Below the pieces are notes generated by a model that was given only the letters and a program-made list of their open reading frames with translations, did not search any database and was not told the DNA's origin. Below are positions 1 through 35,654 of a stretch of 35,654 bases of DNA, one piece after another. Each line of letters starts with the position of its first letter. Positions within the stretch are counted from its first letter, which is position 1. This stretch comes from a virus. Location: positions 1-35,654 of IMG/VR virus record IMGVR_UViG_3300043654_000076; one strand, given 5' to 3'. The translations under genes and the position numbers were made by a program.

Positions 1-1
1 G

Positions 2-1717
2 CTGCTGGCGCTCGGCAGCATCTCGCCGGACTGCTCCTACGAGGAGTGGCTGCGTGTCGGAATGGCGCTCAAGTCGTGCCTGGGGAAGGACGGGTTTAAA
101 GTGTGGGACGAGTGGAGCGCGGCGGGGAGCAAGTACCGGGGTTCGGGCGAGTGCGCCGGCAAGTGGCGCTCGTTCCGGGGCTCGGGGGTAGGCGCCGGCA
201 GCCTGTTCAAGCTCGCGCGCGCCGGCGGCTGGGACGACCGCCATTCGGCGGCCGCGGACTTTGCGCCTGCTACTGCTGGCTCGGGAGGCGACCCTGGCTC
301 GCCGAGTCCCCCGGCCGGCGTCGAGCCGGGTGACCAGTACGAGCGCGGCTCGCTGCACGCCTGGCGCGCCGCCGGCCTGCACCTGGTCGAGGTGGGCTCC
401 GGCAAGAGCGCCACCATCCGGCCGAGCGAGGGCGGCGCAAACGTCGGCCTGTGGCTCCAGAACCACCCGACCTGCGGCCGGCTCCGGCTCAACGAGCGGA
501 CGCAGGAGGTGGAGCTCTCCGGCCGGGCGGTGGACCTGCACGAGCTGACGCGCGCCGCGGTCCACTTCTGCGGGTGGCGCCGCTCGCCCTCCGAGGAGGT
601 GGTGCAGCAGGCGGTGCGCGCGGTGGCGGCCAGGGACCCCTACGATCCGGTGGCCGAGTGGCTGCGCGCGCTCCCACCGCACGACGGCCGGCGGCGCCTG
701 GGCGCGGAGGGCGGCCTCTGCCGCGATCTCGGCCTCGAGGACGGCGCGGTGGCCGAGCGCAAGCTCATGCGGTGGATGGTCGGCGCGGTGGCCCGCGCCC
801 TCGAGCCGGGCTGCCGGATGCAGAACATGCTGGTCCTGTGGGGCGAGCAGGGGCGGCGCAAGAGCGAGGTCTTCCGGCGGCTCGCGGTGCGGGAGGAGTG
901 GTACGGCGAGAGCGAGGTGGACATGGGCAGCAAGGATGGCCAGCTCGCGCTCCTCGGCCCGTGGGTCGTGGAGTGGGGCGAGCTGTCGGGGATGAGCCGG
1001 CACGAGGTCGAGCGGGTGAAGGTCTTCATCAGCGAGTCCACCTCGCGCTTCCGCCGGCCGTACGGGCGCAGGGTGGAGGCGCACCCGCGGCGGGCGGTCC
1101 TCGCCGGCACCACCAACCGGGAGGAGGTGCTGCGCGACGCCACGGGCTCGAGGCGCTTCTGGCTGGTGCAGGTGCCCGAGGGCGACCTGCGCCTGGAGGC
1201 GGTGGCGCCGGGCGCGGTGGAGCAGCTCTGGTCGGAGGCCCTCGCGCTCTACCTGGCGGGGGAGCGCTGGTGGGACGAGGGCGAGGAGGTGCGCGAGCTG
1301 TCGCGGGCGAACGAGCGCCACTACGAGGCGTCCGCGCTCGACAACTGGGTGGAGGCGCTCCTCCCCGAGCTGGCCCAGAAAGGGGCCACCACGATGGTGG
1401 AAGTTGTGGCCCGGCTGTCGGAGCGCCACCGCCTGGGGCCGACCGTGCGGCAGCGCGACATAGGAGATGCAATGCGACGGTGCGGCTGGAATTTGAGCCG
1501 GCTCCGGGTGGAGGGGGAGATGCGGCGGCTCTGGGTGCCACCGGGCGCGACGGCTGAAACGTCGCGCGAGGCCCAGGTGCTCGCGTTCCGCCGGTCGTCG
1601 GCGCCGGAGTTCTCCCCCGAGACGCCTGGAACGAACGGTGCGACGCATGGCAAAATTCAGGCGTCTCAAGATTCTCTCCTCTGTGAGACACCTGAGACGC
1701 CTGAGACTCATGAATAG
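2..1717 (+). CDS. PriCT-2/VirE-type primase-helicase, 5' end outside window
   Basis: Replication protein that would prime and unwind phage DNA. The reading frame is open from base 2, so the gene begins upstream; 571 residues are visible. Residues 1-60 read as the end of a PriCT-2 primase C-terminal domain (SISPDCSYEEWLRVGMALKS, then WDEWSAAGSKY and GSLFKLAR). Residues about 250-420 form a VirE/D5-like P-loop domain: Walker A GEQGRRKS at 281-288, an acidic WVVEWGEL stretch near 320, and AGTTNREEVLRDATGSRRFW near 367-387, the usual VirE arginine-rich sensor. The Walker A has Arg where VirE proteins normally have the third Gly. A primase-polymerase domain presumably lies upstream of the window. 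The last ten codons are a 9-bp tandem repeat (ETPETPETHE) that belongs to the inverted-repeat cluster. It lies on the late strand although its partners (DUF2800, DUF2815, PolA, VRR-NUC, SNF2) are on the opposite arm. Confidence 0.88.
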   Translation: MLALGSISPDCSYEEWLRVGMALKSCLGKDGFKVWDEWSAAGSKYRGSGECAGKWRSFRGSGVGAGSLFKLARAGGWDDRHSAAADFAPATAGSGGDPGSPSPPAGVEPGDQYERGSLHAWRAAGLHLVEVGSGKSATIRPSEGGANVGLWLQNHPTCGRLRLNERTQEVELSGRAVDLHELTRAAVHFCGWRRSPSEEVVQQAVRAVAARDPYDPVAEWLRALPPHDGRRRLGAEGGLCRDLGLEDGAVAERKLMRWMVGAVARALEPGCRMQNMLVLWGEQGRRKSEVFRRLAVREEWYGESEVDMGSKDGQLALLGPWVVEWGELSGMSRHEVERVKVFISESTSRFRRPYGRRVEAHPRRAVLAGTTNREEVLRDATGSRRFWLVQVPEGDLRLEAVAPGAVEQLWSEALALYLAGERWWDEGEEVRELSRANERHYEASALDNWVEALLPELAQKGATTMVEVVARLSERHRLGPTVRQRDIGDAMRRCGWNLSRLRVEGEMRRLWVPPGATAETSREAQVLAFRRSSAPEFSPETPGTNGATHGKIQASQDSLLCETPETPETHE

Positions 1718-2783: not shown

Positions 2784-2829
2784 CCTGGCCTCCGCGCTGG
2801 CCTGGGCGGCGGTGTGGTGCAGGTGCCGC

Positions 2830-2859
2830 TCGACTTGCCCGTGGTGCCGGCGTTACACT
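2830..2859 (+). promoter_or_regulatory. Candidate sigma-70-type promoter
   Basis: TCGACT (2830-2835, 4/6 to the -35 consensus), an 18-base spacer and TACACT (2854-2859, 4/6 to the -10 consensus) in the 108-base gap before the two-helix membrane protein gene. This gap shows no coding sequence. The match is weak and GC-rich sequence gives such matches by chance. Confidence 0.3.
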
Positions 2860-2891
2860 CTGGCGCTGCTGTGGCTGCTGGGGAGGCGCGC

Positions 2892-3095
2892 GTGACCATC
2901 TTCGGCCTGCTGGTGCTGCTCATCGTCCTGGCGGCGGTGTTCTGGCTGCTCTCCGCCTACGTCGTGCCGGCGCTGCCGCCGCCGATCGGCAAGGTGGTCC
3001 TCGCCGTGCTCGCGCTCCTGGTCGTGGTGTGGCTGCTCTCCGCCTTCGGCGTCGTGCCGGGCCTCGGGGCCGACTGGCGCGTGAGGTACCGCTGA
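2892..3095 (+). CDS. Two-helix membrane protein (Thivi_2564-like)
   Basis: 67 residues with two near-identical hydrophobic helices: residues about 3-22 (GLLVLLIVLAAVFWLLSAY) and 33-55 (KVVLAVLALLVVVWLLSAFG), joined by a Pro-rich turn, ending in a basic tail. The layout, including WLLSAFG near the end, resembles the small Thivi_2564 family membrane proteins. The GTG at 2892 is preferred over an upstream in-frame GTG (2814) because GGGGAGG precedes it and because the hydrophobic helix then starts at the N-terminus. The two-helix form would suit a holin or other inner-membrane phage protein, but the lysis genes are elsewhere (9.6-10.9 kb), so the role is open. Confidence 0.7.
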   Translation: MTIFGLLVLLIVLAAVFWLLSAYVVPALPPPIGKVVLAVLALLVVVWLLSAFGVVPGLGADWRVRYR

Positions 3096-7430: not shown

Positions 7431-9584
7431 TTGGCACCGCTCCTGACCGTCGCCAGCGACTTCGACCCCGAGGTCAAGAAGACTCGCGGCGTCGCCCAGG
7501 CACTGCAGCGGAAGAACCCGCTCTTTTACGGCGCCGGGGAGGCGGCGCTCGCCGCGGCCAGCGGGCAGGGGCGCGGGCTGCTCCGCGGCATGGAGGACAT
7601 GCTGCCGCTCGGCCAGCGCGTCACCGACGAGGGCCGCGACTTCGAGCCGGAGACGCCGGTCGGGCGGGGCCTCCTGCGGGTGCTGGGCCTGCCGATGGAG
7701 GTGGCCCACGGGGTGGGGGAGAAGCTGAAGGACAAGCTCTCCGGCTGGGGCCTGCCCGCGGCGCTGGCCGCCGGGGTCGGCGCGGTGCCGGAGCTCGCCG
7801 CGGGGCTCGCCGAGCACCTGACGCCGCGGGTGGAGTCATTTGCCAACCTCCCCAAGAATCGCGTCATCCCTTGGAAGGACCTGACCACGGCGGAGGCCCG
7901 CGCCACCGCGTCGCAGGGGCTGCACCTGCGTCGGGAGGGTCGCGGCTACCAGGGCGCGCCGGCCGGCGTCGGCCCGAAGAACATCGGCGACCTGCGCGCC
8001 AAGCTCGACGTGGCGGTGGCCGGCGGCCTCGAGGGCGCCGACTGGTACCCCAAGGGTCGGGAAGCCATCTCCTCCTCAATGGGCTCACCGGAGGCCGGCG
8101 GGCGCCTCGCGAACATCGCCAGCGCCTACTCCCCGCAGGTGAGCGTACCGCAGTCCATCGAGCTGGCGCTGGGTCACATGGGCGCCCGCGGCGTGCTCGG
8201 TGAGGAGGGTGCCGGCCGCGCGATGCCGGCGCTCGAGACGAGCAAGGCCGCCGCGGTCCGCGGCGCACGCGGGGAGCGCCCCGGCGGCCCCAAGACGGGC
8301 CCTTTCGCCGAGGGCCTCGACCCATCGTTCGACCCCGCCAACTTCTCGCGATCGGTGAACGATACGCACATGATTCAGCTCTTCGGCTACCCGAAGAGCG
8401 GCGCCAAGACGAAGGCCCTGACCGCGTCGCAACACTCGTTCGTCATGGGTGAAATGCACCTCGCGCACAAACGGGCGGTGGAGGCCGGCGTGCTCCCACC
8501 GGCCAGCAGCGTCCACGAGGCCCAGGCCGCGGCCTGGGCCGGCAAGAGGCTCGCGGCGGGTGAGGCGCCGGAGGCGATCTTCCAACCCTTTGATAAGCTA
8601 TTCAAGAGGCATGAGGCGCCGGAGACGTTTCCCGCGCTGCCGTCCGCGCCGGGCCACATGGAGGGCGCCCGGTCGCTGCCGCTCGCCGAGCAGGAGCGCC
8701 TCGCAGAGGCGCTGCAGTGGTCGGCGCCGGGAGAGCGCGACCCAATCTGGGAGGCGCTCGAGGTGCCGCAGGGGCGGACCGGCAAGTCGCGCGAGCGGCT
8801 CCTGTCGCCGGCCCTGCGCGATGAGGCGGGGCGCCTCCACTCTGGTGGCGCCACGCACTCCGAGGTGCTCCTGGGGCTCGACCCGGAGCGCTCCTCCGCC
8901 TTCGAGGACTCCAAGCACTTCGCCTTCTCTCCGAGCGAGGCGGAGGCGGGCTTCCCCGATTCGTGGGCGTCAGGCTTCCTCGACCGGTCGGTGGACCACC
9001 CGGAGGGCAAGTTCGTCGGCCGCACCGAGGCATCGAGGCGCGCTAGCGCCGCGCAGCCGGAGGGCGGCGAGTTCGGCCACTATGAGGGCCCGATGACGTC
9101 GGAGGAGATGCTCTCTAAGCCGCCAACTTTTGAGCGGCGCGAGGCCCGTCCGATGCTCGGGCACGGGCCGACGGACGCCGCGGCGATGGACCAAGTGCGG
9201 GCCTTCCGCGCCGCGATGGATGCGCGCAAGGACGCCGGCATGCCGTGGGGCGACGAGGGCTCGGGCGCGGTCACCGCCGAGATCCTCGACCGCGTCTCCC
9301 CGCACGCCGGCAAGATGCTCGACGCGAGCCCCGGCATCGCGGACGCGCTCCGGCGCAAGAACGTCGGCGAGGGCGCGTGGGCCTCACCTGGCAGCACGCC
9401 GCGCGGGGACCTCCAGCTCCTGCGCCACAAGGTCGGCTCGCAGGGGCTCGAGGGCGTCCGCGCCGAGGTCGGCGACATCGCCCAGAAGCGCGGCATCAGC
9501 CTGCAGGAGGCGGCGGCCACGCTGGGCTTGCCGGCGGCGCTCCTCGGCCTGCAGCAGGCCGCGGCGCCCGACGAGGGCCCGTGA
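7431..9584 (+). CDS. Large virion-associated protein with embedded THM-motif domain
   Basis: 717 residues, TTG start directly after GGGAG-TTTAAAA. Residues 1-130 are Ala/Gly-rich with amphipathic, possibly membrane-active helices (LPAALAAGVGAVPELAAGLA near 103-122). Residues about 308-380 (VNDTHMIQLFGYPKSGAKTK, then SQHSFVMGEMHLAHKRAVEA and VHEAQAAAWAGKRLA) follow the pattern 'THM...G...S..Q......A.......P..QA..W', which I associate with a domain (DUF7178-like) found in phage polyvalent or internal proteins and in some toxins. The C-terminus returns to helical, Ala/Gln-rich sequence. The position after the portal suggests an internal or ejected protein. No enzyme motif could be confirmed. Confidence 0.7.
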   Translation: MAPLLTVASDFDPEVKKTRGVAQALQRKNPLFYGAGEAALAAASGQGRGLLRGMEDMLPLGQRVTDEGRDFEPETPVGRGLLRVLGLPMEVAHGVGEKLKDKLSGWGLPAALAAGVGAVPELAAGLAEHLTPRVESFANLPKNRVIPWKDLTTAEARATASQGLHLRREGRGYQGAPAGVGPKNIGDLRAKLDVAVAGGLEGADWYPKGREAISSSMGSPEAGGRLANIASAYSPQVSVPQSIELALGHMGARGVLGEEGAGRAMPALETSKAAAVRGARGERPGGPKTGPFAEGLDPSFDPANFSRSVNDTHMIQLFGYPKSGAKTKALTASQHSFVMGEMHLAHKRAVEAGVLPPASSVHEAQAAAWAGKRLAAGEAPEAIFQPFDKLFKRHEAPETFPALPSAPGHMEGARSLPLAEQERLAEALQWSAPGERDPIWEALEVPQGRTGKSRERLLSPALRDEAGRLHSGGATHSEVLLGLDPERSSAFEDSKHFAFSPSEAEAGFPDSWASGFLDRSVDHPEGKFVGRTEASRRASAAQPEGGEFGHYEGPMTSEEMLSKPPTFERREARPMLGHGPTDAAAMDQVRAFRAAMDARKDAGMPWGDEGSGAVTAEILDRVSPHAGKMLDASPGIADALRRKNVGEGAWASPGSTPRGDLQLLRHKVGSQGLEGVRAEVGDIAQKRGISLQEAAATLGLPAALLGLQQAAAPDEGP

Positions 9585-10153
9585 CGCGCGCGGCGGCGGC
9601 GCTCCTCGCGCTCTGCGCGTGCTCGCGCACCGTCGAGGTGGCGCGGCAGTCGGAGTCGCACGACTCGTCCCAGCAGAAGTGGGACGAGTCGGTGGTGGAG
9701 GACAAGCAGTCGGAGCAGAAGCGCACCGAGACGGAGGTGCGCGAGCCGACCGTGACCGAGACGGTGGGCGCCTGGGACGAGCTGGTCTTCATCGAGCAGG
9801 ACGGTGGCACCGCCTCTGCGGGGCTGATGGGGAGTGCCACCCCACCCCCGCTGCTCGACGCTGGCCAGCTCGTCCGAGTCGTCCACCACCCGGCCACCAC
9901 GAGGGTGGTCACTGGCGAGGTCAGGCGCGAGGTGGTGGTCGACCGGCGCGCCGCCGACGAGGTCAAGCGGGCCGACGAGGCGCAGTCGGTGGCGAAAGCG
10001 GACAGCTCGGTCGAGGAGCGGTTGAAGGAGGACACCCAGGTGGGCACATCGTTCCTGCTCCACCTCTTCCTGCTGGCCCTCGGCGGGGGCGCGGTGCTCC
10101 TGCTGTTCGTCTTCAGGAAGTCCATCCCGCTGCTGCGGCTCCTGCCGTGGTGA
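9581..10153 (+). CDS. Candidate unimolecular spanin (u-spanin)
   Basis: 190 residues from a GTG overlapping the previous stop. N-terminus MTRAAAALLALCACS is a lipoprotein signal with lipobox L11-C12-A13-C14, so Cys14 would be lipidated. Residues about 20-150 are highly charged, Glu/Lys/Val/Thr-rich and partly heptad-like. Residues about 158-178 form one transmembrane helix (FLLHLFLLALGGGAVLLLFVF) followed by a short basic tail. An outer-membrane lipid anchor at the N-terminus and an inner-membrane helix at the C-terminus is the T1 gp11 u-spanin layout, though this protein is longer than gp11 (131 residues). The next genes are a holin-like protein and an endolysin, which supports a role in disrupting the outer membrane at lysis. 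Function inferred from topology. Confidence 0.65.
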   Translation: MTRAAAALLALCACSRTVEVARQSESHDSSQQKWDESVVEDKQSEQKRTETEVREPTVTETVGAWDELVFIEQDGGTASAGLMGSATPPPLLDAGQLVRVVHHPATTRVVTGEVRREVVVDRRAADEVKRADEAQSVAKADSSVEERLKEDTQVGTSFLLHLFLLALGGGAVLLLFVFRKSIPLLRLLPW

Positions 10154-10160
10154 GGTCCGA

Positions 10161-10550
10161 ATGTTGGCGACCGTGGCTTGTGCGATGATGGCTGCCAGAG
10201 AAGTCGTAGGGTTGCACGAGGTGGCCAACGATGAGGGGGCGCTGGTGACCCTGCCGAGGGACGAGGAGAGGCGGGCGGTCGGGGACCTCGCCGGCCTGGA
10301 GACGACGCGGAAGGAGGACCACGGGGTCGACGGGAAGACGTTCGTCATCCTGCACCACGTCCAAGAGGTGCGGACGATGCTCTCCGAGCGGGTCACCGCC
10401 CACGGCGTCGCCCAGGACAAGCTGCACTCCGACCTCGAGTCGCGGATGCGCGAGGTGGAGAAGTTCAACGCGCGCATCTTCGGGGCGCTCGTCCTCGTCG
10501 GCGCCACCGCCGGGCTCATCGGCGGCCTCGTTTCGAAGCTCCTGAAGTGA
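10161..10550 (+). CDS. Holin-like protein with C-terminal membrane helix
   Basis: 129 residues. GAGG lies 5 bases before the ATG at 10161; later starts (10185, 10188, 10221) are possible. Residues 20-100 are charged, with a coiled-coil helix (EVRTMLSERVTAHGVAQDKL onward). The C-terminus is one membrane helix (ARIFGALVLVGATAGLIGGL) ending in SKLLK. This resembles XhlA-type holin accessory proteins, which have a soluble helix before a terminal membrane anchor. Its place between the spanin candidate and the endolysin suggests a role in permeabilising the inner membrane. Confidence 0.6.
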   Translation: MLATVACAMMAAREVVGLHEVANDEGALVTLPRDEERRAVGDLAGLETTRKEDHGVDGKTFVILHHVQEVRTMLSERVTAHGVAQDKLHSDLESRMREVEKFNARIFGALVLVGATAGLIGGLVSKLLK

Positions 10551-10554
10551 CCCG

Positions 10555-10932
10555 ATGATCGTCTACCGCATCAGGGACGGTGGCATCTTCCTCGCCAACA
10601 TGATGGGCACCTCGCTCATCGGTCGCGGCTATGCCGGCAACGGGCAGTGGAAGGACGACCCGGCGGCGACGGCGGAGCACGGGCACGGGCCGCTCCCGGT
10701 GGGGGCCTACAAGATCGGCCGCCCCTACGACCACCCGCACCTCGGCCAGCACGTCATGTTCCTCGAGCCGGTGCCCGGCACCGACATGCTCGGGCGCGGC
10801 GGGTTCTTCGTCCACGGCGAGAACGCCGCGCACCCGGGGGAGTCCTCCGATGGCTGCATCGTCGCCGAGCGCACCATCAGGGGGTGGGTGGCGAAGGAGT
10901 CCCTCCTGGTGGTGGTGCCAGATTCATTTTAA
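10555..10932 (+). CDS. Endolysin-like protein, Tlde1/DUF2778 L,D-transpeptidase fold
   Basis: 125 residues, whole protein one domain. Layout: YRIRDGGIFLANMMGTSLIG at the N-terminus, HGHGPLPVGAYKIGRP at 42-57, LGRGGFFVHGENAAHPGESS at 79-98, then DGCIVAERTIR. His87, Ser98, Gly100 and Cys101 match the HG...S-x-GC catalytic motif of L,D-transpeptidase-like enzymes. The 'GPLPxGxYxIG' and 'GRxGFxxHG' blocks match DUF2778/Tlde1, whose Salmonella member attacks the peptide stems of peptidoglycan. Placed last in a spanin/holin cassette, it is the best endolysin candidate; no lysozyme or amidase is seen. It has no signal peptide, so release would need the holin. Enzyme class inferred. Confidence 0.75.
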   Translation: MIVYRIRDGGIFLANMMGTSLIGRGYAGNGQWKDDPAATAEHGHGPLPVGAYKIGRPYDHPHLGQHVMFLEPVPGTDMLGRGGFFVHGENAAHPGESSDGCIVAERTIRGWVAKESLLVVVPDSF

Positions 10933-14971: not shown

Positions 14972-16090
14972 GTGTCGCTGCCGGTCTACGAGACTGCGGG
15001 CTCCATCATCAACAAGGCGCTCGCGTCCGCGGGCCTGCCGAGCGTGGCCGACCCGTACCTCCTGGCGGCCACCGACACCAACTACTCCGTCGCCACCCAG
15101 CTCCTCGAGGACGTCGGGCAGGACCTGCTCTCCGAGCACGACTGGACGGCATTCCAGACGGAGTACATCTGGACCACCGTCGCCGGGCAGCAGCGCTACC
15201 CGTTCCCGGCCGACTTCTTTAAAATGTACGACCAGAGCGGGTGGGTGCGGAACACGCGCCTGCCCGTCGGGGGCCCGCTCTCGCCGCAGGAGTGGCAATT
15301 CCTCTCCGCGCGCCTGGTCGGTGTGACCTGGACGGTGCTCTTCCGCCCCGCCGTGGGCGCCCTCAACATCTTCCCCAGCCAGGGTGCCACCCCCGGCACC
15401 TTCGTGGTGGCCTTCGAGTACTTCTCCGCCTACTGGGTGAAGTCGAACGCGGTGTTTGGCGCCATCGGCGCGGTGCCGTGGACCGCCAACACCGCCGCCT
15501 TCTTGCCCGCGCCGACGTCGGCGCAGTGGCTGCCCAACACCGCCTACGCGTTCGGCGCCCGCGTCTACAACCTCGGGTCGAGCTACGTCTGCTCCCAGGC
15601 CGGCGTGTCGGCGGGGGCCGGCGGCCCGGTCGCTACCGGCACCAACATCGTCGACAACACCTGCCGCTGGAACTTCCAGCTCACCGCCTGCAGCGTCGCC
15701 AGCAACGTGTACGTCTGCACCAGCGCCGGCACCACCTCCAACGCGGCGGGGGCGACCGGCCCGACGAACTTCGGCAGCTACCTCGACGGCACCGCGCAGT
15801 GGAAGTACCAGTGGAACAGCGGCACCGCCGGCACGCCGAACACCCTCACCCCCTCCTCCAGCTCGGACGTGGTCTGCTTCGACCCGCTCCTGATGCGCCG
15901 CGCGCTCAAGTTCGCGTGGCTGAAGGACCGCGGGTTCGACTCCGCGCAGGCCGAGGAGGACTACCTCGAGACGCTGCGGAAGACCAAGAGCAGCGAGTCT
16001 TTCGGCGCCGTCCTGCGCCTCGGCGGCAAGCGCTCCCAGGACCCGCTGCTCTCCACCGCCAACCTGCCGCTCACCGGTTACGGCCAGTGA
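14972..16090 (+). CDS. Head-to-tail adaptor with two inserted CBM-like modules
   Basis: 372 residues, GTG start with GAGG upstream. Residues 5-150 match the gp4 (P22)/gp11 (T7) type connector: SIINKALASAGLPSV, ATQLLEDVGQDLLSEHDWT, QRYPFPADFFKMYDQSGWVR. The C-terminal part (LMRRALKFAWLKDRGFDSAQ onward) completes it. Between them lie two extra modules, about 186-235 (WLPNTAYAFGARVYNLGSSY...C...VDNTCRW) and 239-281 (shorter, ...YVCTSAG...W), related to the module in the decoration-like protein at 13298. The module position would put them on the outside of the neck. A TTTAAA element sits in codons TTT AAA at 15218. Confidence 0.82.
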   Translation: MSLPVYETAGSIINKALASAGLPSVADPYLLAATDTNYSVATQLLEDVGQDLLSEHDWTAFQTEYIWTTVAGQQRYPFPADFFKMYDQSGWVRNTRLPVGGPLSPQEWQFLSARLVGVTWTVLFRPAVGALNIFPSQGATPGTFVVAFEYFSAYWVKSNAVFGAIGAVPWTANTAAFLPAPTSAQWLPNTAYAFGARVYNLGSSYVCSQAGVSAGAGGPVATGTNIVDNTCRWNFQLTACSVASNVYVCTSAGTTSNAAGATGPTNFGSYLDGTAQWKYQWNSGTAGTPNTLTPSSSSDVVCFDPLLMRRALKFAWLKDRGFDSAQAEEDYLETLRKTKSSESFGAVLRLGGKRSQDPLLSTANLPLTGYGQ

Positions 16091-17796
16091 GCGAGGCCGG
16101 CGCGGACCCCGACCGGCGGAGCGCCCGCGGGTGGAAGTTCCGGCGCGTCGGCAAGCCCTCGCGCCTCATCTGCGCCACGGTGCCCGCGCCCGACGGCGTC
16201 AACACCGTCGAGGTGGGCCCGAGCATGCCGGGCTCGGACGCCTCGTTCATCTACAACATGGTGCGGAACGAGCGCGGCCTGCGCGTGCGCCTCGGCTACC
16301 AGGAGTGGTGCACCAACCTCGGCGCGGGCCCCTCCGACCAGGTCGTGCGGACGGTGGTCCCCTACTTCGGCTCGACCGCCAGCGGCTCGAAGGACCGGCT
16401 GTGGGGCGTCACGCAGAAGGGCATCTACAACTGCACCAACAGCAGCGCCGGGCCCGCGCTCCTGCAGGCGTGGCCGAACCAGGGCGCGCTCGCCGGCTAC
16501 GGGACCTTCCACGCCTTCGCCACCGCGGCGGGCCGGTTCGTCATCCTCTGCGACGAGGTCAACGGCTACTGGCTCTACAGCGAGGCCACCGACGCCTGGG
16601 CGCAGGTGACCGCCGGGGCCGGCGCCAACCAGATCCAGGGCAATGACCTGCAGGGCAACCCGATTGACCCCACCCGGTTCGCCTCGGTCACCTTCTTCAA
16701 GCAGCGGCTGTGGTTCACCTACCGCGACAGCTCGCAGGCCTTCTACCTGGGCCTCAACGCCATCTACGGCGCGGCCACGCCCTTCGAGTTTGGCGCCCGG
16801 TTCCGCTCCGGCGGCTCTCTGGCGACCCTCAACAACTGGAGCTACGACGGCGGCTCCGGCATGGAGACGTACCTCTGCGGCTTCTCCACCTCCGGCGACG
16901 TGGTCATCTACCAGGGCATCAACCCGAATGACATGACCAGCTTCCAGATACTGGGGGACTGGAACGTCGGGGCGGTGCCCACCGGGCGCAGGTTCACCAC
17001 CTCCTTCGGCGGCGAGCTGCTCGTCCTCTGCAGCAAGGGCGTCATCCCGCTCTCGCACCTCATCTACGGCAAGAGCGCCTTCGACTTCAAGCAGTATGAT
17101 ACTTTTAAAATAACTAACTTCTTCACCGCGCTCTTCGCCCAGTACCGCGGCTACCAGGGCTTCAGCATCCACGTCCACCCCTCCGACAACTGTGTGGTGG
17201 TGACCGTGCCGCCGACGCCGGGCGCGGACCCGATGCAGCTCTGCATGTCGCTGGCGAACGGTGGGTGGACCTTCTACCGCGGCGTGCCGATGTACTCCGC
17301 CGCGAGCTGGGAGGGGCAGCTCTACTTCGGCACCGGCAACGGGAAGGTCTGCGTCAACGTCGGCTTCCTCGACGGCACCGGTATCAATGGGGCCGCGGGC
17401 TCCCCCATCCAGTTCTCCCTGCTCACCGCCTTCACCAACCGCGGCAACAGTCGGCGCAAGCGGGCGGGGCAGTGCCGCGCGACCTTCATCAGTGAGGGCG
17501 CGCCACCGACCTGGGTGGCCGTCGCGCGCTACGGCTACGACTTCACCGAGGCGGTGGTGCCGCAGGGGGTGCAGGGCGGCGTCGGCGTGCCGTGGGTGCC
17601 ACCCGCCGCGCCGGCCGGCTGGGACCAGGCCCTGTGGGACCAGGCGGTGTGGGGTGGCCAGTTCAGCAACACGCAGGCCCGCGCCGGCCTGGGCGGCGCG
17701 GGGCCGGATGTCGCGGTGGCCGTCGCCGGCAGCGCGAACGCGAAGGTGTCCCTGGTCCAGATAGAGGCCTACTTCGACGAGGGGAACACGCTGTGA
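16087..17796 (+). CDS. Tail nozzle/tubular protein B-like
   Basis: 569 residues, GTG overlapping the adaptor stop. The start region VEVGPSMPGSDASFIYNMVR followed by NERGLRVRLGYQEW is typical of podophage tail nozzle proteins (T7 gp12 / P22 gp10-like groups), in which the ring is built from a beta-propeller-like fold. Many short beta strands follow, e.g. FVILCDEVNGYWLYSEATDA and GGSGMETYLCGFSTSGDVVI. Follows the adaptor, as in T7-like gene orders. Contains a TTTAAA element encoded TTT AAA at 17104-17109. Confidence 0.82.
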   Translation: MSEAGADPDRRSARGWKFRRVGKPSRLICATVPAPDGVNTVEVGPSMPGSDASFIYNMVRNERGLRVRLGYQEWCTNLGAGPSDQVVRTVVPYFGSTASGSKDRLWGVTQKGIYNCTNSSAGPALLQAWPNQGALAGYGTFHAFATAAGRFVILCDEVNGYWLYSEATDAWAQVTAGAGANQIQGNDLQGNPIDPTRFASVTFFKQRLWFTYRDSSQAFYLGLNAIYGAATPFEFGARFRSGGSLATLNNWSYDGGSGMETYLCGFSTSGDVVIYQGINPNDMTSFQILGDWNVGAVPTGRRFTTSFGGELLVLCSKGVIPLSHLIYGKSAFDFKQYDTFKITNFFTALFAQYRGYQGFSIHVHPSDNCVVVTVPPTPGADPMQLCMSLANGGWTFYRGVPMYSAASWEGQLYFGTGNGKVCVNVGFLDGTGINGAAGSPIQFSLLTAFTNRGNSRRKRAGQCRATFISEGAPPTWVAVARYGYDFTEAVVPQGVQGGVGVPWVPPAAPAGWDQALWDQAVWGGQFSNTQARAGLGGAGPDVAVAVAGSANAKVSLVQIEAYFDEGNTL

Positions 17797-24772: not shown

Positions 24773-25078
24773 ATGATTTTAAAATGGCGCACGGCCTTCG
24801 TCATCCTGGCCCTCTCGCTGGTGCTGCTCGCGGGCATGTACCTATGCCTGCGCCAGGGCGGCGACACCTCGCAGAAGCTCTTCTCGGACCTCGCCACCGC
24901 GCTGGTGCTCCTCGCCGTCAGCATGGCCGGCAAGAGCAGCGTGGAGCACCTCGCCGACGGCGGCGGGGTCCGCGGCGCGATGAGGTCCTTGCTCACTGAG
25001 GCCCGGCCAGGCGATGCTCCGGCGCAGGGCACGACCACCGTGACCGAGACGTCCAAGACCACCGAGGTGAAGCCGTGA
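24773..25078 (+). CDS. Two-helix holin-like membrane protein
   Basis: 101 residues, ATG at 24773 after GGGGCGG; a TTTAAA lies right after the start codon (ATGATTTTAAAATGG). Helix 1 is about residues 7-26 (AFVILALSLVLLAGMYLCLR), helix 2 about 38-53 (SDLATALVLLAVSMAG). The tail is hydrophilic and Thr/Lys-rich. Size and topology are holin-like, so the phage may have a second holin or antiholin besides the 10161 gene. The stop overlaps the next GTG. Confidence 0.65.
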   Translation: MILKWRTAFVILALSLVLLAGMYLCLRQGGDTSQKLFSDLATALVLLAVSMAGKSSVEHLADGGGVRGAMRSLLTEARPGDAPAQGTTTVTETSKTTEVKP

Positions 25079-25851
25079 AGCTCCCGCTCGCAGCACTCCT
25101 GCTCCTCGCCGCGCCCGCGGCCCTCGCTCAGTACATCCCGCCGGTGGTGGGCTCCGTCACGGCGTCCAACGCGAGCTGCTCCTCCACCTCCCAGGCCTAC
25201 CAGGTGCTGGCCGGCGTGGCCGGCGCCAACTCCGTCGGCGTGTCGATTCCGACCTCCACCGCCACCTTCGCCTTCTTCGGCTCCCGCGACGGCGGCGCGA
25301 GCTGGGCGCCGCTCCCCGGCGGCCCCGACGCGACCACCAGCGGTGGGAACTTCACGACCGGAGTCACCCTCTCCGGCGCGGCCTGGAATGGGGTGGTGTC
25401 GGTTGTTGGCATGCGCCAGTTTTGCCTCATTGCCACCGCGTTCACCTCGGTGGCCGGGCAGGTCTGGGTGCAGCCGTCCACCGCGCCAGTGGTTCCCGCG
25501 CAGCTGCTGTACGCGAGTGTGTCGAGCGGCGGCGCGCTGAAGGTCGGCTCACCAAACACCGCTGGCGCCGTACCGACCCAGGTGTCGGTCACCACCAGTG
25601 CGACGCGCATCTTCCTGGCCTCGCCCTTCGACTGCTCGGTCACGGTGCAGAATGAGAGCAATGCGCAGGTGGCCACTTGCGGGTCCACCAATGCGGTGAC
25701 TGCAGGTGCCATCGGCATCACGCTCAAGAAAGGCACCGCCGCGGGGGACGGCACTGGTGGCTCAATGTCCTTTCCGAGCGGCGCCGACATCTGGTGCATC
25801 GCCGACGCGAACACCCTCAACGTCGGTATCCAACCCTTCACCTGCCCGTGA
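25075..25851 (+). CDS. Exported beta-sandwich protein
   Basis: 258 residues, GTG overlapping the preceding stop. MKLPLAALLLLAAPAALAQ is a classic Sec signal with cleavage after ALA. Residues 40-140 follow a module often seen in phage tail proteins, 'SxGVSI..(T)ATFxFFGSRDGGASWxPL...GQVWVQPS'. The second half (VTTSATRIFLASPFDCSVTV; SGADIWCIADANTLNVGIQP) is also beta-rich with Cys that may pair. Exported form of a virion-type module; the role (periplasm, host surface, virion decoration) is unknown. Confidence 0.68.
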   Translation: MKLPLAALLLLAAPAALAQYIPPVVGSVTASNASCSSTSQAYQVLAGVAGANSVGVSIPTSTATFAFFGSRDGGASWAPLPGGPDATTSGGNFTTGVTLSGAAWNGVVSVVGMRQFCLIATAFTSVAGQVWVQPSTAPVVPAQLLYASVSSGGALKVGSPNTAGAVPTQVSVTTSATRIFLASPFDCSVTVQNESNAQVATCGSTNAVTAGAIGITLKKGTAAGDGTGGSMSFPSGADIWCIADANTLNVGIQPFTCP

Positions 25852-25859
25852 GGCCCACC

Positions 25860-26342
25860 GTGCGCTACCTGTCCCTCGCGCTCTCGCTCGCCCTGCTGCT
25901 CCTCGGCGCCGGCATGGTGGCCAGCTCCGCCCGCGCGGTGGCCGGCTCCAACGTCGACAACGGCGCGCCCCCGGTGCCGGGCCCGACGACGCTGTCGAGC
26001 TTCTTGGTCAACGGCGTGGTCACCGCCGCGAGCTACGGCGGCACGGTGCTGCCGGCGCGGGCCTTCCTGGTGCAGGCGGTGCGCTTCCGCGTGTCGGTCG
26101 CCGCCTCCGGCGCCGGCACCGTCACCCTCCGCGCCAGCGACGGGACGAACAACTGCGACGCGGCGGTGAGCTGCGCCCTGGCGACCACCAACACGAGCCT
26201 CCGGCAGGCCGCGGCACCGAGCGCCGGGAGCTGCACCTTCCCGGCGTCGGCGACCATCACCTACTCCGTGGCCAGCTCCACCTGCGCCGTCACCCAGCCG
26301 CTCGTCCTGGGGACGGTGGACGTGGAGGGGACGTGGCAGTAG
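25860..26342 (+). CDS. Exported Cys-containing beta protein
   Basis: 160 residues, GTG 8 bases after the previous stop. Signal peptide MRYLSLALSLALLLLGAGMV ... ARA. The mature part is beta-rich with four to six Cys (DGTNNCDAAVSCALATTNTS; SAGSCTFPASATITYSVASS; STCAVTQP), suited to disulphides in the periplasm. It may be co-expressed with the preceding exported protein as a pair. Its 3' end overlaps a convergent minus-strand gene by 53 bp. Confidence 0.65.
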   Translation: MRYLSLALSLALLLLGAGMVASSARAVAGSNVDNGAPPVPGPTTLSSFLVNGVVTAASYGGTVLPARAFLVQAVRFRVSVAASGAGTVTLRASDGTNNCDAAVSCALATTNTSLRQAAAPSAGSCTFPASATITYSVASSTCAVTQPLVLGTVDVEGTWQ

Positions 26343-35467: not shown

Positions 35468-35654
35468 TCACGGTGACACCGGCGCAGCCGCCAGCAGCTC
35501 GACCAGCTTGTCGGCCATCCTGCCCCACGCCGCCGCCTCCGCCGCCACCCGCGCCACCCGCGCCGCCTCCGCCTCCGCCTCCGCCTCCGCCGCCGCCGCC
35601 TCCGCCGCCGCCGCCGCCTCCTCCGCCGCCCGCGCCGCCCGCGCCGCCGCCACC
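35468..35654 (-). CDS. Alanine-rich protein, C-terminal part
   Basis: The frame is open to the window edge, so the gene starts beyond it; 61 residues visible. An Ala/Glu/Arg helical repeat (AAARAARAAEEAAAAAEAAA ...) leads to AWGRMADKLVELLAAAP. Proteins with A-A-x-A-rich helices ending in a '(W)xxMADKLVELL' motif are common in high-GC phages and bacteria. The Ala part is encoded by simple repeats. The function cannot be judged from the fragment. Confidence 0.5.
   Translation of the reverse strand, partial: VAAARAARAAEEAAAAAEAAAAEAEAEAEAARVARVAAEAAAWGRMADKLVELLAAAPVSP
35529..35654. repeat. CCGCCT/CCGCCA/CCGCGC simple repeat
   Basis: Plus strand is almost only CCGCC-type 6- to 9-base units (CCGCCT, CCGCCA, CCCGCG). 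It encodes the Ala/Glu helix on the minus strand and could vary in copy number. Confidence 0.75.

Follow-up and report, generated by a model that had tools for sequence, protein, structure and literature searches.

A Tlde1-domain protein of L,D-transpeptidase fold as the probable endolysin of a podovirus-like phage with Mx8/Mx9-like virion genes

The window, the whole stretch of viral DNA analysed here, is an IMG/VR record of 35,654 bases. The genes that bear on lysis in it are listed below with the evidence for each assignment.

2814-3095, plus strand: 93-AA protein with two or three transmembrane (TM) segments, an alternative holin candidate (hydropathy)
7431-9584, plus strand: 717-AA protein of unknown function (Pfam, PHROGs, comparison with Mx8/Mx9)
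9581-10153, plus strand: 190-AA protein of u-spanin topology, with a short signal, a lipobox-like LCAC and a TM segment near the C-terminus (sequence, hydropathy)
10161-10550, plus strand: 129-AA XhlA/holin-like protein with a coiled-coil-like body and one C-terminal TM helix (TM prediction, coding signature)
10555-10932, plus strand: 125-AA Tlde1_dom (DUF2778) protein of L,D-transpeptidase fold, the proposed endolysin (ORF, Pfam, model)
16084-17796, plus strand: predicted tail nozzle of the P22 gp10/T7 gp12 type, mislabelled 'amidase' (predicted structure, homologues)
24773-25078, plus strand: 101-AA protein with two hydrophobic stretches, an alternative holin candidate (hydropathy only)

The ORF at 10555-10932 runs from an ATG to a TAA and starts 4 nt after the stop of the gene at 10161-10550. 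Its G+C content by codon position (0.67/0.46/0.93) followed the pattern of the window's known genes, portal (0.70/0.41/0.94) and capsid, whereas the overlapping minus-strand ORFs were unlike them, and we therefore regard it as a real gene. The product matched Pfam PF10908 (Tlde1_dom, formerly DUF2778) with an E-value of 1.2e-12 and 48.7 bits, above the curated cut-off of 30.1, and fell into PHROG 24118 (phrog_24118, unknown function; 1.8e-22); its match to the YkuD family (PF03734, 1e-3) was weak and below the Pfam cut-off. PADLOC and NCBIfam gave no match, a single-sequence scan for close relatives found nothing, and a PDB sequence search returned chance matches only (KdpC/OmpG), with a profile search of the PDB adding a weak and uninformative match to one YkuD-family protein. 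No signal peptide or other export signal was seen in the sequence. The residues HG (87-88) and SSDGC (97-101) are in place, with H87 and C101 intact, so that the coordinates, residues and Pfam match all agree with a sequence-only reading that had placed here a small protein with HG...SSDGC, C101 and a Tlde1/DUF2778 fold.

When viral contigs were scanned with four divergent homologues, 75 loci were recovered, and across 52 non-redundant phage sequences the residues H87, G88, S98, G100, C101, R81 and R109 were invariant. The catalytic motif H...[ST]xGC is present as H87 and S98-D99-G100-C101, and the residue between S98 and G100, D here, is H, D, S, N or E in most other homologues. The AF2 model of the 125-AA protein (pLDDT 96.2, pTM 0.89) consisted of one L,D-transpeptidase (YkuD/Tlde1) fold. 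The kinship with Tlde1 suggested by the sequence-only reading was borne out by Foldseek searches of the PDB, in which Bd1075 and Tlde1a (TM 0.62) came first, followed by Ldtfm, YkuD and other L,D-transpeptidases, all with prob 1.00 and TM values of 0.53-0.62 but E-values of only 1.6e-3 to 1e-2. Bdellovibrio Bd1075 (PDB 7o21), an L,D-transpeptidase-fold carboxypeptidase, had the best E-value of the fold matches (1.6e-3; prob 1.00, TM 0.60); it differs from the phage protein in being larger, in coming from a predator bacterium and in not being a phage lysin.

Tlde1a, a type VI secretion system (T6SS) effector of Salmonella Typhimurium (PDB 7uma, 7uo3, 7uo8), shares with the phage protein the Tlde1_dom, the L,D-transpeptidase fold, the His and the Ser-x-Gly-Cys, its own motif being H121, S128, H129 and C131 (PMC9638812). 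It also shares, by motif spacing only, an Arg six residues before the His, R115 before H121 in Tlde1a and R81 before H87 here; R115 binds the carboxylate of a free D-amino acid (PMC9638812). Unlike Tlde1a, the phage protein is encoded by a late gene, has SDGC rather than SHGC, and is too distant for a PDB sequence search to find. The H129A variant of Tlde1a kept its exchange activity and partly lost its carboxypeptidase activity (PMC9638812), and since D99 stands in place of H129, the leaving-group pocket may differ. At 125 AA against about 172 in Tlde1a, the phage protein is some 50 residues shorter and thus probably lacks a capping subdomain. No T6SS or immunity gene was seen near 10555-10932, where Pfam and PHROGs identified phage structural genes.

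The capsid protein (57-60% identity) and TerL (51% to Mx9) match those of the Myxococcus phages Mx8 and Mx9 and of contigs L083 and L086, as do the portal, adaptor, nozzle and acetyltransferase genes. Between portal and scaffold, Mx8 and Mx9 have one or two small genes and the window four more. These occupy 7431-10932, between the p161 and scaffold genes, and comprise the gene for the 717-AA protein, 9581-10153, 10161-10550 and the Tlde1 gene; the stretch has no Mx8/Mx9 counterpart and looks like an insertion. The Tlde1 gene is absent from Mx8, Mx9, phiGT1, L083 and L086, and phiGT1, L083 and L086 differ from the window in having lysins of the usual types. In L083 and L086, which share the virion genes of the window, a coiled-coil/TM gene precedes the gene for an M15 peptidase or SLT transglycosylase at a distance of 0-2 ORFs: in L083 the tail fibre gene is followed by a 74-AA ORF with a coiled coil and a C-terminal TM segment, one short ORF and then an M15_4 peptidase, and in L086 a 94-AA ORF of the same kind shortly precedes a 312-AA SLT-like protein (SLT by inspection). 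A 78-AA coiled-coil/C-terminal-TM ORF likewise overlaps the Tlde1 gene of L044 by four bases. The coiled-coil/TM genes of the window, L044, L083 and L086 are alike in architecture and not in sequence.

In the window, this architecture belongs to the 10161-10550 protein (alternative start 10185), in which a charged, probably coiled-coil region precedes the TM helix. The protein at 9581-10153 begins MTRAAAALLALCAC... and has a TM segment from about residue 154 followed by RK; by inspection and hydropathy it thus combines the N-terminal lipoprotein signal and the C-terminal TM anchor of a u-spanin. Pfam, PHROGs and NCBIfam gave no family match for either protein, and a single-sequence scan found no close relatives of the u-spanin-like one. 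With topology alone as the basis of the u-spanin and holin calls, it is plausible that the two genes complete a lysis cassette with 10555-10932. Gene order and topologies would be those of canonical holin-endolysin-spanin cassettes (M15, SLT, GH19 and GH108 lysins; T1 u-spanin), which use a metallopeptidase, amidase or glycosidase, whereas the lysin here has the predicted fold of a thiol L,D-peptidase. The alternative holin candidate at 2814-3095 had a weak membrane-protein match, below the cut-off. Downstream of the tail fibre genes, a 2-TM protein is followed at 25075-26342 by two proteins with signal-peptide-like N-termini and Ser/Thr/Ala/Gly-rich bodies, which are unusual for phage proteins and gave no family match.

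Profile searches of the record for Phage_lysozyme, Amidase_2, GH108, GH19, M15_4, M15_3 and Muramidase found no match, although those for GH19 and Muramidase matched no control either and are weak negatives. Among the remaining window proteins, Pfam and PHROGs pointed to no lysin with one exception, 16084-17796, which matched the 'amidase' phrog_5107 over 16084-17793 (E=2.2e-84), a label derived from Mx8 p52, whose RefSeq name is amidase. If the label were right, this protein would be the true endolysin and the Tlde1 protein secondary, a reading that we consider very improbable. It has no Pfam amidase domain, and its homologues are annotated as head closure in Mx9 and as tubular tail B (HHpred) in phiGT1, a phage with a separate GH19 endolysin. 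Its model (pLDDT 81) matched tails or nozzles of Pa223, VP1, P22 (gp10) and T7, with a best E-value of 8e-17. Predicted structure and homologue annotation together indicate a nozzle, and we rejected 16084-17796 as an N-acetylmuramoyl-L-alanine amidase or standard endolysin. A search of the record for a standard endolysin thus left this predicted nozzle as the sole candidate, and the claim of the sequence-only reading that the Tlde1 protein is the only peptidoglycan-directed protein in view held insofar as no standard lysin was found, less firmly for the GH19 and Muramidase families. The record is linear and a VapE-like helicase gene is cut at its left end (window 1-60); with at least the start of that gene absent, a lysin could be missing as well. 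The right end (35500-35654) is a GGC-type low-complexity repeat. The assembly probably broke at the record ends, with the loss of some early-region sequence.

In about 50 divergent homologues from phages the catalytic residues are intact, and holin or spanin-like genes often adjoin them, the neighbours including several endolysin families, GTA_holin_3TM (3) and four matches to Rz-like spanins. Small TM proteins were found no more than two genes away at 31 of 47 loci against 52 of 110 control genes (p=0.04 pooled; p below 1e-4 by within-locus permutation), a modest result, given a crude gene picker and the frequency of TM segments in small ORFs of phages. Standard lysins were rarer in domain-bearing records than in related records without the domain. 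Seven lysin families were counted in 37 domain-bearing records of at least 20 kb and in 13 controls with a nozzle homologue and without the domain, giving 4/37 against 8/13 (Fisher p=0.0007), or 3/25 against 7/10 among records of at least 30 kb (p=0.0016). These counts are lower bounds, as a lysozyme-like neighbour in L021 escaped the PF00959 search, and its inclusion moved p to 0.0017 only; the control set was small and all of one virion lineage, and records may be fragments, so we treat the difference as suggestive. The domain was also found in Citromicrobium microvirus P1 (L002, MG214764.1), an ssDNA phage of 4.36 kb and six genes, as ORF2 (L002:1358-1738), with His and Cys intact and no function assigned by its authors. 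A single-sequence scan found no close relatives of this protein, which is likely to be a lysis gene.

Other phages carry the domain along with a normal lysin. The records L005, L077 and L073 have it together with a lysozyme or GH108, and in L021, L029, L030 and L056 the Tlde1 gene directly adjoins a gene for a lysozyme, GH108, glucosaminidase or SLT, possibly forming two-enzyme lysis cassettes. In jumbo Erwinia, Yersinia and Dickeya phages an annotated endolysin or glycosyl hydrolase lies within a few kilobases of the domain gene. Burkholderia phage JC1, also a podovirus, has its DUF2778 gene (gp41) near the terminase and portal genes and a full lysis module elsewhere (PMC9144972), and neither in JC1 nor in the jumbo phages has the domain protein been assigned a function. 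Presence of the domain is therefore not enough to assign an endolysin role, and the domain can be auxiliary.

Based on these data, we conclude that 10555-10932 probably encodes the endolysin of a podovirus-like phage with Mx8/Mx9-like virion genes, in a cassette of u-spanin, XhlA-like holin and lysin. The endolysin role proposed by the sequence-only reading is supported by the fold, by the position in the cassette, by a record in which no other lysin could be recognised and by the place that an M15 or SLT enzyme takes in relatives. Next in our ranking, and unlikely by comparison, comes an auxiliary lysis enzyme that would trim tetra- to tripeptides or swap D-amino acids and so help a second lysin, unrecognised or missing; this could include an activity such as that of the YkuD-family enzyme DpaA, which removes protein-peptidoglycan links. 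The pairing with a second lysin in L021, L029/L073, L030 and L056, the endolysins annotated near the gene in jumbo phages, the chemistry of Tlde1a (PMC9638812) and the agreement of R81 with the spacing of the D-amino-acid-binding R115 all speak for such a helper, but the window yielded no second lysin and few of the other domain-bearing records (4/37) did. Less probable again is that the gene has no part in lysis and encodes an L,D-carboxypeptidase that modifies the wall or works in the cytoplasm and serves to exclude superinfecting phages, recycle muropeptides or take over the host. An enzyme of this kind would fit a protein in which no export signal was seen, the location of the JC1 gene near the terminase and away from the lysis module (PMC9144972), and the L019/L024/L034/L042 group and others, where no TM gene is adjacent. 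It fits poorly with the position of 10555-10932 directly behind two membrane-protein genes, the frequency of holin, spanin and lysin neighbours among homologues, the retention of the domain in so small a genome as that of the microvirus, and the lack of a PADLOC match.

For the 125-AA protein, the sequence-only reading suggested that it might cut or exchange stem-peptide D-amino acids, which would be the chemistry of the effector Tlde1a (PMC9638812). The holin would open the inner membrane and let the enzyme reach the periplasm, where C101, activated by H87, would attack stem peptides at the mDAP3-D-Ala4 bond and form a thioester, which water would resolve (L,D-carboxy/endopeptidase); turgor and the spanin would then finish lysis of the weakened wall. 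Tlde1a itself trims stems and exchanges D-amino acids as a carboxypeptidase/exchange enzyme, and cutting of 4-3 cross-links was not reported for it (PMC9638812). By itself such chemistry would leave existing 4-3 cross-links intact, and for a lysin it is necessary that cross-links are cut or repair is blocked. The least certain step is that the enzyme may cut cross-linked stems (L,D-endopeptidase) rather than trim them alone. According to a review of L,D-transpeptidases, LdtCd2 and LdtCd3 have L,D-endopeptidase activity (PMC12729407), and the fold is therefore capable of it.

In the literature searched, we found no function for DUF2778/PF10908 phage lysins and no description of the distribution across some 50 divergent phages, the cassette context or the near-exclusion of other lysins. 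The PhaLP database of phage lytic proteins has a YkuD class of 10 entries, one of them with PF10908 (PMC8310338); this class shares the fold and is counted among catalytic domains, as a listing and not as an activity. The idea of such a lysin is therefore not wholly new. The protein is most likely a little-recognised kind of endolysin, its chemistry being proposed by analogy, and dozens of other phages carry what by sequence is the same gene, largely unannotated. A broader proposal, which we hold tentatively and at somewhat less than even chances, is that Tlde1-domain proteins (phrog_24118 and kin) form a widespread and overlooked class of sole lysins, lytic L,D-endopeptidases of tailed phages and a microvirus.

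This result may have implications for lysin surveys, which the database label 'amidase' (phrog_5107) may mislead by hiding the absence of a standard lysin. If the broader proposal is right, lysis would come from thiol attack on the mDAP3-D-Ala4 bond, and the secretion-system effector would put the domain to a related purpose. A sole lysin of L,D-transpeptidase fold would add one chemistry to the few that endolysins use, assign a role to a PHROG of unknown function found across many phages, explain lysis in seemingly lysin-less genomes and link phage lysis with the antibacterial effectors of secretion systems.
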